A stretch of DNA of 64,000 nt from Ruminococcus sp. FC2018 (GTDB lineage: Bacteria > Bacillota > Clostridia > Oscillospirales > Ruminococcaceae). The stretch is from the NCBI RefSeq assembly GCF_000621805.1, contig NZ_JHXH01000002.1, positions 124,001-188,000 of the forward strand. Reading direction: 5' to 3'. Made by a program: the position numbers and the translations under genes. Of this stretch, positions 6,288 through 63,812 are shown in pieces (position 1 is the stretch's first letter; the number at the start of each line of letters is the position of its first letter). The notes beneath the pieces are model-generated. The model searched no databases and had not been told where the DNA came from. It saw only the letters and a program-made list of their open reading frames with translations.

Positions 6288-7160
6288 TTACTTGATATCT
6301 TTTTTGTTATACAGCTTTGTTGTGAAATACAGCAGAACAACTACTGTGATTATGCCGACTATCAGCGCTCGCAGCATACAGCCCTCGTCGTTGAGGTTCG
6401 TACGGTAGAGGCTGTCTGGCATATAATCTGAAAGCTCGAAATCCTTTTTGAACTTAAACAGCTTGTTAATACCTGCGGAGATGCCCGTATAAGCAAGTCC
6501 TGTAAAGCCGGCTCCGCACAGGATCGCAACTATCGTACCTGCGACATTTGAGCCGATCGCTGTGGTAAGCAGCAGCACCAATGCGCAAAGTCCCGTGAGC
6601 AGTATCCATTTTATCGCAAATTCAGCGAGCACAGACCCCATGCCGAATATCTTTTCCTCGGCTCTGGTCAGAGTCTCCTCATCAAAATCTCCTGCGACAC
6701 TCATATCGAACACTATATGTCTGCCGACCAGCAGCTGACCTATGGTGTTGCCGATAACAGTAACTGCATAGAACAGCAGCGTTGTGAACTGGATCACTAC
6801 GAATTTGGAGATTATGGTGTGACCTCTGCTGGGAAGCTGACCTGCGATATTCTTGATGTAGCCGTGCTGGATATCAGCATAGCAGAACCACACGATGCAA
6901 AGCAGGAAAACTGCGGTACATACCATACCGAGCTGGTCTGCGAGGACATTGCCGAAGTGGAAGGTGTTGTCCCATTCACCCAGCTGTGCAAGAGCCTTTT
7001 CGGGATCTTCATTCTGCTCTGCAAGCTTTTTGCCGAGGTTGAACATTATCTTTCCGAGCGGTCCTTCGATCAGATTCATAAAGAACACGATAATGAGACA
7101 GACCTTGAACGACATTGATTTAACGAGTCTGTAAAGGTCCATTCTGATAACGTTACCCAT
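6288..7160 (-). CDS. ABC-2 type transporter permease
   Basis: 290 residues with about six membrane helices: one near the N-terminus after a short basic segment, a cluster in the middle and a final helix before a Lys-rich end. This matches the BcrB/ABC-2 permease type often found in export or sensing of cationic peptides. The start at 7160 (MGNVIRM) is chosen because AGGAGGTG lies seven bases upstream; a reading from 7238 would run far into the ATPase gene. The first eight bases overlap the ATPase stop, indicating coupled translation. Substrate unknown. Confidence 0.82.
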   Translation of the reverse strand: MGNVIRMDLYRLVKSMSFKVCLIIVFFMNLIEGPLGKIMFNLGKKLAEQNEDPEKALAQLGEWDNTFHFGNVLADQLGMVCTAVFLLCIVWFCYADIQHGYIKNIAGQLPSRGHTIISKFVVIQFTTLLFYAVTVIGNTIGQLLVGRHIVFDMSVAGDFDEETLTRAEEKIFGMGSVLAEFAIKWILLTGLCALVLLLTTAIGSNVAGTIVAILCGAGFTGLAYTGISAGINKLFKFKKDFELSDYMPDSLYRTNLNDEGCMLRALIVGIITVVVLLYFTTKLYNKKDIK

Positions 7161-8076
7161 TATGCTCACCTCCTGTAAGACTGAGATAGTAGTCCTCAAG
7201 AGATACGCTGTTGACATAGAGCTCCTTGAGGGGAACATCAGCTTTTACGATAGCCGCTGCCATTTTGTCACTGTCTTCGAGTCTTTCACCGACACGCAGC
7301 ACTCCGTCATCGTCAATATTGGTCTGCGTTATGCCTATGCCCGAAAGTGCCTTTATTGCGCCGTCGTTATCGGGCGTTTTTATTGCCACGAACTGGCCGC
7401 AGCGTGACATAAGCTCGTCATTTGTAAACTGCTCTATCAGCTTTCCCTCGTGGATTATGCCGTAGGAATCTGCGAGCTTTGCAAGCTCCTCAAGGATATG
7501 GCTGGATATCATTATGGTGATGCCCTTTTCGTCACGCAGCTGTGCGAGGGTATGTCTTACCTCAACGATTCCCTGCGGGTCGAGTCCGTTGATAGGCTCG
7601 TCAAGGATTATCATTGACGGTTCTCCGACGAGGGCGAGGGCGATGCCCAGCCTTTGCCGCATACCGAGTGAATACTCCCCTGCGCCTTTTTTATCGGATA
7701 CGTTTTCAAGTCCTACGATTTTCAGCAGGTTGTCAAGGTAGTTATCCTTTTTATAGTCAACGCCCATTGCCATGCACTTGATCTTCAGATTCTCCCTTGC
7801 ACTGCGCTTGGGGTAAAGACCCGGGTGCTCGATAAGTACGCCCACCTTGTTCATCATTTTCCTCATCTCAGAACCCGTCTTGCCAAACAGCGAGTATGTG
7901 CCGCTGGTGGGGTTTGAAAGACCGCTTATCATTCGCATGATAGTGGTTTTTCCTGCGCCGTTTCGCCCGATAAGACCGTAGATCTCGCCCTCACGGATAT
8001 TGATGTTGATATCCTTTGCGGCGTCCTTTTTGCCGTAGGTCTTTGTCAGGTTCTGGGTCTGCATTATGTATGACAT
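7153..8076 (-). CDS. ABC transporter ATP-binding protein (BcrA-like)
   Basis: About 307 residues. Walker A GRNGAGKT, signature SLGMRQRLG and Walker B MIILDEP are all intact, followed by a C-terminal extension of about 90 residues typical of BcrA-type subunits. It powers the permease encoded next. The ATG at 8076 is preferred over that at 8082 because GGAGG would be only about two bases from the latter. Middle gene of a three-gene operon. Confidence 0.9.
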   Translation of the reverse strand: MSYIMQTQNLTKTYGKKDAAKDININIREGEIYGLIGRNGAGKTTIMRMISGLSNPTSGTYSLFGKTGSEMRKMMNKVGVLIEHPGLYPKRSARENLKIKCMAMGVDYKKDNYLDNLLKIVGLENVSDKKGAGEYSLGMRQRLGIALALVGEPSMIILDEPINGLDPQGIVEVRHTLAQLRDEKGITIMISSHILEELAKLADSYGIIHEGKLIEQFTNDELMSRCGQFVAIKTPDNDGAIKALSGIGITQTNIDDDGVLRVGERLEDSDKMAAAIVKADVPLKELYVNSVSLEDYYLSLTGGEHNG

Positions 8077-8102
8077 TTGCATTACCTCCGAATTGTTGTG
8101 GA

Positions 8103-8758: not shown

Positions 8759-8787
8759 ATTTTACACTTTTTATTGCATGTTGTCAA
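8759..8787 (-). promoter_or_regulatory. Proximal promoter of the ABC operon
   Basis: On the minus strand TTGACA (8787-8782), 17 bp, TAAAAT (8764-8759). Confidence 0.7.
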
Positions 8788-8853: not shown

Positions 8854-8966
8854 ATAATAGCATATATCCAATGCATTTGCAACCGACAATTATGCCTAAA
8901 AGTGTTGTTTAAGCTGCATACTCCGTGGAAATTGTAGCTTAAGCTACAGAAAACGTTTAAGCTGTA
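8854..8966 (-). promoter_or_regulatory. Distal ABC operon promoter with palindromic operators
   Basis: Minus-strand TTGCAA (8882-8877), 17 bp, TATTAT (8859-8854). Upstream lie an imperfect copy (8903-8918, 13/16 match) and a perfect 16-bp palindrome TGTAGCTTAAGCTACA (8933-8948), centres 30 bp apart. A third half-site TTTAAGCTG is at 8956. The near site ends 20 bp before the -35 box. The same arrangement recurs at 63387-63482. Confidence 0.65.
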
Positions 8967-8981
8967 ACCTTTGTTCCGATC

Positions 8982-62190: not shown

Positions 62191-63315
62191 ATGGAAGAAA
62201 AGAAAAAGAACCCGTCTTTTGTCTGGAAATGTATATGCATAGCCCTGGCTGCGGCACTGCTTACAGTATCCTGCCTGTACATTTTCAAGCTGAGCAGCGG
62301 CAGCTCAGACAGCACAAGCAGCTCGGAATCCCGGTCAAAGGACAATGAAAAAGACCCTTTGTCCATGTGGACAGAGAATGCTCCGCTTAAAAAACAGCTT
62401 ACGGAGTATATCAGCAAGATAACCGATAAGGACTCAAAGGACTTTATCCCGGTCGAAAAACGTATCGCTGTGTTTGATTTTGACGGAACGCTGTTTTGCG
62501 AAACGGACCCTGTGTACTTTGATTACAGGCTTTTTTATTACCGTGTAACGGAAGATCCCGACTACAAGGATAAAGCAAGTGCAGTGGAAAAAGAAACTGC
62601 CGCAAAGATAAAGACCATGATGGATACAGGTGAGTCTGCAAAGGGACTGGAGGTTGCCCACGGAAAGGGCGTGGCTTCGGCATTTGCAGGAATGACTGTG
62701 GGACAGTTCAATTCATATGTCAAGATGTTCAGAGAAAAGCAGGCACCAAGCTACAACAACATGAAAAACGGCGAGGCTTATTATAAGCCCATGATCCAGG
62801 TGGTAAACTATCTTAAAGCAAACGATTTCACTGTATATGTTGTAAGCGGCACGGACAGATTTATCGTAAGGGGCGTTATAGAGGACTCGGCTCTTGATGT
62901 TCCCCCAAGACAGATAATCGGATCTGATGAAACTATCGTTGCCGACCACCAGCAGGGTGAGGACGGAATGGTATACCAGTATAAGCTTGAGGATAAGGTC
63001 ATAACCGGCGGAGATTTCATTATCAAGAATCTGAAGATGAACAAGGTAAGCGTTATCCAGCAGGAGATAGGTGTGCAGCCGGTGCTTTCCTTCGGTAACT
63101 CCTCCGGCGACAACAGTATGGCAAACTTCGTTATCGACGACAATCCGTATCCGTCTGCTGCGTATATGCTTTGCTGTGACGACCTGGAGCGTGAGAACGG
63201 AAATCTGAAAAAGGCTGATGCAATGCGTAAAAGCTGCGAGGAAAACGGCTGGACAGCAATTTCCATGAAGGACGACTGGACGACCATCTATGGTGATGAG
63301 GTAACAAAGAAATAG
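62191..63315 (+). CDS. Membrane-anchored HAD-family phosphatase
   Basis: 374 residues. One N-terminal hydrophobic segment (about 12-32, with a Cys that could be lipidated) and a Ser-rich linker place the catalytic domain outside the membrane. HAD motifs are FDFDGTLF (nucleophile Asp), VSGTDRF and GNSSGDNSM, with a large helical cap, as in phosphoserine phosphatase-like enzymes. Substrate unknown; extracellular HAD phosphatases are uncommon. AAAGGAGAA precedes the ATG. Confidence 0.85.
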   Translation: MEEKKKNPSFVWKCICIALAAALLTVSCLYIFKLSSGSSDSTSSSESRSKDNEKDPLSMWTENAPLKKQLTEYISKITDKDSKDFIPVEKRIAVFDFDGTLFCETDPVYFDYRLFYYRVTEDPDYKDKASAVEKETAAKIKTMMDTGESAKGLEVAHGKGVASAFAGMTVGQFNSYVKMFREKQAPSYNNMKNGEAYYKPMIQVVNYLKANDFTVYVVSGTDRFIVRGVIEDSALDVPPRQIIGSDETIVADHQQGEDGMVYQYKLEDKVITGGDFIIKNLKMNKVSVIQQEIGVQPVLSFGNSSGDNSMANFVIDDNPYPSAAYMLCCDDLERENGNLKKADAMRKSCEENGWTAISMKDDWTTIYGDEVTKK

Positions 63316-63366: not shown

Positions 63367-63386
63367 TTTACAGTTTCAGATCCATG

Positions 63387-63482
63387 TGTAGCAAAAACTA
63401 CATGGACCTGTGATGGTTGTAGCATAAGCTACAGATGCAGCCGATATTATCTGTTGAAAATCCCGTGAACAGGTGGTATTAT
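63387..63482 (+). promoter_or_regulatory. Small-peptide promoter with twin palindromes
   Basis: TGTAGCAAAAACTACA (63387-63402) and TGTAGCATAAGCTACA (63418-63433), centres 31 bp apart, then TTGAAA (63454-63459), 17 bp, TATTAT (63477-63482). The near site ends 20 bp before the -35 box, exactly as upstream of the ABC operon at 8.9 kb. Confidence 0.7.
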
Positions 63483-63529: not shown

Positions 63530-63625
63530 ATGATCTCAGCACTTATTTCAATCGGAGCCGGCGTAGTTTTCGTTGCCTGCTGTGTATATGTAGCACGCAC
63601 CATCGTTGCCAATGACGTAAAATAA
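63530..63625 (+). CDS. 31-residue membrane peptide
   Basis: Encodes a single hydrophobic helix starting MISALISIGAGVVFVACC, then a short polar end (TIVANDVK). AAGGAGGA lies eight bases upstream, and a dedicated promoter with two palindromic sites precedes it, so expression is well supported despite the size. No Gly-Gly or lantibiotic leader is visible. It could be a small membrane protein, a signal or a toxin-like peptide. Confidence 0.6.
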   Translation: MISALISIGAGVVFVACCVYVARTIVANDVK

Positions 63626-63665: not shown

Positions 63666-63807
63666 ATGTGGATCAAAGTAGAGGGCATTTTTACAGGAGT
63701 CAGATTTTTTCAAGACGCTGAACATCTGCTTTCACATAACGGAAGAACCCGACAGCGAGTCGGCAGAAACCATAGCAGACATTGTGCTGCGCAGACAAAC
63801 GGAATAA
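63666..63807 (+). pseudogene. Small second gene with apparent frameshift
   Basis: An ATG with AAGGAG upstream opens a frame beginning MWIKVEGIFTGVRFF. At a run of six T (63704-63709 region) the more protein-like continuation (ICFHITEEPDSESAETIAD, ending TAA at 63807) is in another frame. With five T the product would be 46 residues. In the ATG frame the protein runs to 63812 (48 residues) with an Arg-rich end. It may be a real frameshift, a slippage site or an assembly error. Confidence 0.4.
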
Positions 63808-63812
63808 CGTAA

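Follow-up and report, generated by a model that had tools for sequence, protein, structure and literature searches.

The two twin-palindrome promoters in the window (the whole stretch of 64,000 nucleotides that was analyzed), one upstream of an ABC transporter operon and the other upstream of a short hydrophobic peptide, appear to be members of a regulon that counts about 14 promoters in this genome. The sequences make it fairly probable that this regulon is run by a DhaS-like activator of the TetR_C_8 type that is encoded outside the window. The promoter architecture, the classes of the target genes and the co-occurrence with a TetR gene can be read directly from the genomes, and the target classes suggest that the regulon is most likely a program for export and competition. 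The elements of the two promoters are as follows:

8963–8967, minus strand: third half-site TTACA of the ABC operon, identified by eye; its place, another 30 bp upstream, is conserved in a profile of 59 promoters (see below)
8933–8948, minus strand: distal palindrome of the ABC operon, TGTAGCTTAAGCTACA, centered near −93.5 (direct reading and pattern search)
8903–8918, minus strand: near palindrome of the ABC operon, TGCAGCTTAAACAACA, centered near −63.5 (direct reading and pattern search)
8854–8882, minus strand: core promoter of the ABC operon, TTGCAA-N17-TATTAT with an extended −10 TG (direct reading and genome pattern search)
63368–63372, plus strand: third half-site TTACA of the peptide locus, identified by eye, at the place conserved in the same profile
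63387–63402, plus strand: distal palindrome of the peptide locus, TGTAGCAAAAACTACA, one mismatch (direct reading and pattern search)
63418–63433, plus strand: near palindrome of the peptide locus, TGTAGCATAAGCTACA, no mismatch (direct reading and pattern search)
63454–63482, plus strand: core promoter of the peptide locus, TTGAAA-N17-TATTAT with an extended −10 TG (direct reading and genome pattern search)
63530–63625, plus strand: hydrophobic peptide of 31 amino acids, MISALISIGAGVVFVACCVYVARTIVANDVK, downstream of the twin-site promoter

At the ABC operon the distal palindrome is perfect and the near palindrome is degenerate (three mismatches to TGTAGCNNNNGCTACA), with centers 30 bp apart and 20 bp between the near palindrome and the −35 box (8877–8882; −10 box at 8854–8859). 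At the peptide locus the centers are 31 bp apart and the near palindrome again lies 20 bp from the −35 box (63454–63459; −10 box at 63477–63482). The order of twin palindromes, 20 bp, −35 box, 17 bp and TATTAT that the first-pass annotation had described for both loci is thus exact to the base. Site centers of −63.5 and −93.5 or −94.5 presuppose a predicted start 7 nt past TATTAT.

Loose palindromes alone (up to three mismatches) occur in the window at chance level (21, compared with a shuffle mean of 24.16); it is the combination with the core promoter that counts. The pattern palindrome-N20-TTGNAA-N17-TATNAT (up to three mismatches) is found eight times in the 2.4-Mb genome and its reversed control is never found, and each of the five palindromes with at most one mismatch in this genome forms the near or distal site of such a promoter. 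Among 100 genomes the design is present in 10, all of which belong to the 29 genomes of the same genus (0 of the 71 others, all controls 0). These controls speak against a random occurrence of the motif and its recurrence shows conservation in relatives; together with the shared design they support the earlier proposal that one regulon is common to both loci. A scan of named species genomes with a tight pattern returned 37 loci whose titles read Ruminococcus, Clostridia, Clostridiales or Oscillospiraceae bacterium; one of these loci is in R. flavefaciens YRD2003 (L056). Another (L067) carries no distal site and may be a chance match.

A search for the palindrome only has no promoter in its pattern and so avoids a bias toward the promoter geometry. 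Eighteen loci were scanned (16 from the palindrome-only search) and 15 gave new contexts, in all of which a TTG-type −35 box follows the palindromes at a distance of 20 or 50 bp; three of the 15 have a weak TTGATT (by eye) and one has a 16-bp spacer. Within the subset of further palindrome-only matches that was fetched and read, most show the same design. The exact palindrome-only search matched seven out of 11 genomes with the TetR gene described below and gave no match in G001, G002, G017, and G024, where sites were found by looser patterns only; its reversed control produced one match, in G002, on both strands. A spacing control, in which the spacer of the pattern was 16 bp, identified two sites in one of the 29 genus genomes, one being the 16-bp site of L157. 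Several of the genomes are incomplete (70–90%).

Clustering of the open reading frames around the named loci revealed a TetR-like gene that is divergent from site pairs. The genome under study (G000) carries two paralogues:

C2:57473–58024, minus strand: TetR-a gene, outside the window
C2:204407–204967, plus strand: TetR-b gene, with its own variant sites

Both proteins score above the Pfam cut-offs for TetR_N (30.4 bits for a and 26.6 bits for b, cut-off 24) and TetR_C_8 (PF14278; 60.8 and 58.7 bits, cut-off 26.1). Co-occurrence with the sites was tested for two regulators, this TetR_C_8 protein and a NarL type. TetR orthologues (at least 55% identity) are present in 12 of the 29 genus genomes, every other match being at most 32% identical, and sites of the refined pattern occur in all 12 genomes with TetR and in none of the 17 genomes without it (controls 0; Fisher p = 1.9e-8, a value that ignores relatedness). 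The TetR_C_8 gene thus tracks the sites and supplies the co-occurring regulator gene that the first-pass annotation had proposed to look for. A response-regulator tree that covers 23 of the 29 genomes requires four changes of the combined TetR/site state, and well-supported branches force at least three of them: G016 is without TetR and sites next to G006, and G002 and G024 carry the two in the midst of genomes that have neither. Furthermore, G001 and G024 encode TetR and appeared siteless with the first pattern, so that the sites found there by the refined pattern amount to a partial test of the prediction. In the other genera of the family, TetR was identified in seven of 296 genomes searched beside G000 (few of the 296 belong to the same genus) and sites in five of the seven; the two with a TetR match and no site are G345, with a b-type helix, and G351, with a short match. 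TetR divergently adjoins a site pair in six of the 12 genus genomes and likewise in G310, which belongs to another genus, and it is not beside sites in G001, G002, G004, G010 (copy a), G017, and G024.

The AlphaFold model of TetR (mean pLDDT 82.9) places the protein near DhaS, the TetR-family activator of the dihydroxyacetone kinase operon (TIGR02366), which shares the TetR_C_8 group. The DhaS proteins 4mk6 and 2iu5 have the best Foldseek E-values at modest TM-scores (0.56–0.57), and a Clostridium fatty-acid regulator ranks higher by TM-score (0.66). The NCBIfam equivalog cut-off for DhaS is 129 bits and the two paralogues reach 54.5 (a) and 51.8 (b). Unlike DhaS, the regulon has many scattered targets, and no dihydroxyacetone kinase gene was found among the targets read.

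The regularity of the promoters was analyzed in two non-redundant sets. The first contains 59 promoters picked by near site and core promoter, and the second contains 97 promoters from G000 and related genomes, restricted to sites with fetched loci so that some refined-pattern sites lie outside it; in both sets the distal site was outside the pattern. With a threshold of at least 7 of 10 half-site bases, 54 of the 59 promoters have their best distal site at 30 bp (in one of them a site at 60 bp scores equally), two have it at 31 bp, one at 29 bp and one at 52 bp, and one has none. The 97 promoters have it at 30 bp in 88, at 31 bp in two, at 29 bp in one, elsewhere in three and below threshold in three. 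The operators thus stand at a fixed helical distance from the −35 box, as expected of an upstream activator (20 bp for the near site). The profile of the 59 promoters also shows a third half-site, CTACA, kept another 30 bp upstream (C in 83% at the strongest place), a conserved ATTGTCTA ahead of the −35 box that is outside the search pattern, an extended −10 TG (97% for each base) and a conserved start region ATAGACACAGCAAGAGAA with A at the predicted +1 in 97%. These first transcribed bases, as counted from the predicted start, are kept beyond what a promoter needs.

The site geometry, the weak −35 box, the extended −10 and the DhaS-like fold favor activation. We infer that TetR dimers occupy the two palindromes (centers near −63.5 and −93.5; a third half-site lies near −123) and that, once bound, they would assist sigma-A RNA polymerase at promoters whose −35 is weak and whose −10 is extended. 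The fixed 20-bp spacing of the near site and the 30-bp spacing of the distal site agree with the activator-like placement next to RNA polymerase that had been suggested for both loci from their sequence. Short peptides of hydrophobic or amphipathic character are the predicted output, together with exported proteins, some GG-leader-like peptides and, as a less constant component, ABC transporters.

Most TetR proteins are repressors, and by this general knowledge the twin sites might instead be operators at which TetR closes the promoters or only that of its own gene, the divergent placement permitting repression of tetR itself. We regard this as unlikely, since the sites lie upstream of the −35 box at a fixed 20 bp and leave the core promoter uncovered, the −35 box is weak, most targets are distant from any tetR, and the nearest named relative, DhaS, is labeled an activator in NCBIfam and the PDB. 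The ComA box has a 6-4-6 arrangement, and by analogy the regulator could be a NarL/LuxR-type response regulator (C3:182934–183551) that is accompanied by a histidine kinase. This protein is the sole full response regulator among three GerE matches in G000 and is present in 11 out of 12 genomes with sites. However, it is also present in 13 out of 17 genomes without sites (Fisher p = 0.37), G001 (85% complete) has three sites and no match to it, and its loci carry no convincing site of their own. It does not track the sites as a ComA-like regulator would; co-occurrence leads us to reject it as the activator, a role that is very improbable for it. Least credible of all is a mobile cassette or repeat that spread as copies and has no shared regulator: conservation does span about −120 to +14, but it sits on operator, promoter and start positions. 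The majority of the 12 bases that follow the near operator, and a large part of the −35/−10 spacer, stay below 0.5 bits. There are no repeat-like flanks outside functional positions, the downstream genes vary, and sites are missing wherever genus genomes lack TetR.

A TetR activator is further suggested to use more than one operator type. The recognition helix reads LNRGTLYRHY in paralogue b (G000, G010, and G020) and VNRVTFYKHY (VNRVTFY-type) in clade a, and paralogue b divergently adjoins variant sites, for example TGTTCGTTAAGCAACA, in all three genus genomes that have it. The b-type promoters keep the 20/17 spacing and lie ahead of peptides of 29, 30, and 32 amino acids. Four of the 97 promoters combine GTCGCA between the operators with GCYCA ahead of the −35 box, and all four are in genomes with paralogue b. 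At the level of sequence, operator and regulator thus covary across the two paralogues. The near sites of the a type, 24% of which have T for A at position 4, speak against a clean a/b split. A search with the b-type consensus gave matches in eight of the 29 genomes, and most of the 22 matches listed are a-type sites within three mismatches, so the consensus alone does not separate the two types.

The first genes behind the 97 promoters, given as raw counts without a background rate from other genes, comprise 25 peptides of at most 40 amino acids, four GG-leader-like peptides, 51 proteins whose N-terminus is hydrophobic (secreted, lipoprotein or membrane, with ABC operons counted and signal peptides assigned by hydrophobicity only) and four others, two of which look exported by eye. 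The remaining 13 promoters have no open reading frame with a ribosome-binding site within 250 bases. Peptides and transporters are thus both seen among the targets, as the first-pass annotation had anticipated. Fourteen of the 25 short-peptide loci carry at least two such reading frames by script count, for example 19 and 17 amino acids in G000 (L007), three of 16 amino acids in G012 (L019), and 29, 28, and 22 amino acids behind a b-type promoter in G000 (L182).

The 14 promoters of G000 comprise 12 identified by the refined pattern, the ABC promoter and one that adjoins TetR-a. Five lead into short peptides (C2:187418, C2:204212, C5:19340, C8:30748, and C15:4845), five into exported proteins (C1:75848, C1:141004, C2:58223, C2:207217, and C8:30987), and the remaining first genes are the ABC operon and a membrane protein of 77 amino acids (C19:30288). 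At C15:23745 (L213) and C15:27963 (L012) a regulon promoter is followed by a ribosome-binding site without a clear reading frame; these are perhaps lost peptide genes. Family searches of exported targets were of little yield: they identified a Lipase_3 protein (L041), an alpha/beta hydrolase (L012) and an ABC ATPase (L157). The ATPase stands behind such a promoter in G010 and is nearest to models for bacteriocin and darobactin export, below their cut-offs. Weak Pfam matches of L054, L152, L021, L007 and others were set aside as unconvincing. Two large exported targets of G000, L006:3395–8794 (1800 aa, with InlB-like repeats) and L007:9115–10785 (557 aa), match hardly any known family. The exported target of 148 amino acids behind the C1:75848 promoter (L011:7356–7799) ends in C-terminal near-repeats of KHPGECGYNYY, reminiscent of a multi-copy peptide precursor. 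The GG-leader-like peptides under regulon promoters are found in G002 (L165, L018, and L028) and G024 (L219), with three in tandem at L165. Two of these four, L018 and L028, match no Pfam model at cut-off and none in NCBIfam, and thus have no assignment to a double-glycine bacteriocin family.

The ABC operon downstream of the twin-site promoter consists of the following features:

8759–8787, minus strand: second, ordinary promoter TTGACA-N17-TAAAAT, identified by eye and also present in L114 and L115
8103–8717, minus strand: membrane protein of 204 amino acids, the first gene, used in a search for relatives over the genus
7153–8082, minus strand: ABC ATPase, nearest to lantibiotic-protection and PmtC/DrrA models, under their cut-offs
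6288–7238, minus strand: open reading frame of a membrane protein, a permease by position, with a likely start near 7160 behind a ribosome-binding site (by eye)

Neither the 204-amino-acid protein nor the permease-position protein has a Pfam or NCBIfam match. Relatives of the former are present in seven of the 29 genus genomes, all seven with TetR and sites. Six operon copies have a readable upstream region, and the 20/17 twin-site promoter precedes three of them (G000, G006, and G012); it was not seen upstream of the operon in G004 (one copy), G009, and G020. No site was seen for the second G004 copy (L118), which the upstream script did not locate, or in two G008 pieces that were scanned. 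In G004 (L115) the sequence diverges inside the distal palindrome and resumes ahead of the second promoter, which stays. The earlier placement of the operon under the shared promoter is weakened by the second promoter and by the sites in only three of six readable copies, which make the operon a plausible and less constant member of the regulon. A membrane protein of 85–88 amino acids (L048, L059, and L163) precedes the ABC operon in G006 and follows regulon promoters in G004 and G020; it is possibly an immunity protein.

Among described systems, CAETHG_0459 of an acetogenic Clostridium is a TetR-family activator that binds RNA polymerase and works with sigma-A from a conserved promoter motif (PMC6873888). 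The likeness, drawn from the description given there, is TetR-type activation from a conserved promoter motif; the targets differ in belonging to C1 metabolism, and that paper does not contain the string "palindrom" (PMC6873888). The literature search found no publication that describes the present regulon by its title or the start of its abstract. Phenol-soluble modulins of Staphylococcus are short leaderless amphipathic peptides encoded in tandem, with the Pmt exporter. The regulon resembles this system in its short leaderless amphipathic tandem peptides and in the match of the window ATPase to PmtC (NF047568). However, that match reaches 162.2 bits against a cut-off of 375, the regulator differs, and export of the peptides by the ABC system is putative. 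The best NCBIfam match of the ATPase is the BcrAB-like lantibiotic-protection family TIGR03740 (235.4 bits, below the cut-off of 309.75). Double-glycine bacteriocins and peptide quorum sensing (Rgg-SHP and PlcR-PapR) offer a further comparison for short peptides under a regulon promoter: four of the 97 first genes are GG-leader-like, whereas the candidate regulator is of the TetR type.

We infer that the peptides act on neighboring cells or membranes and that the ABC systems would export them or protect the producer. Peptide signaling, a bacteriocin system or a peptide-stress response, as proposed in the first-pass annotation, are candidate roles. A more speculative idea, which we hold to be doubtful, is communication or competition by short leaderless peptides in which the TetR paralogues would serve as intracellular receptors. 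Each would sense its own set of short hydrophobic peptides, or a peptide-caused state, and drive their expression through its own operator code, so that a and b would form separate channels in one cell. TetR proteins are known mainly as local repressors. Here the sequences argue for an activator regulon of the TetR type that extends across the genome, has a very rigid promoter geometry and two paralogues with operators of their own, and yields tiny peptides that annotation readily skips. Searching for the promoter alone could uncover short peptides that are missing from the annotation of gut and rumen Ruminococcus, and the a and b paralogues offer a natural pair for studying how operator codes diverge.

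The surroundings of the peptide in the window add a few details. A reading frame of 48 amino acids with a ribosome-binding site (63666–63812) lies behind it and has no obvious counterpart among the other printed peptide loci. Peptides of 30–31 amino acids that resemble the window peptide sit behind such promoters in relatives (L022, L029, L030, L031, L042, and L043). The gene upstream is the following:

62191–63315, plus strand: HAD-type phosphatase, upstream of the 31-amino-acid peptide

In G004 (L017) and, by eye, in G001 (L214), a relative of this phosphatase is itself the first gene after a regulon promoter.
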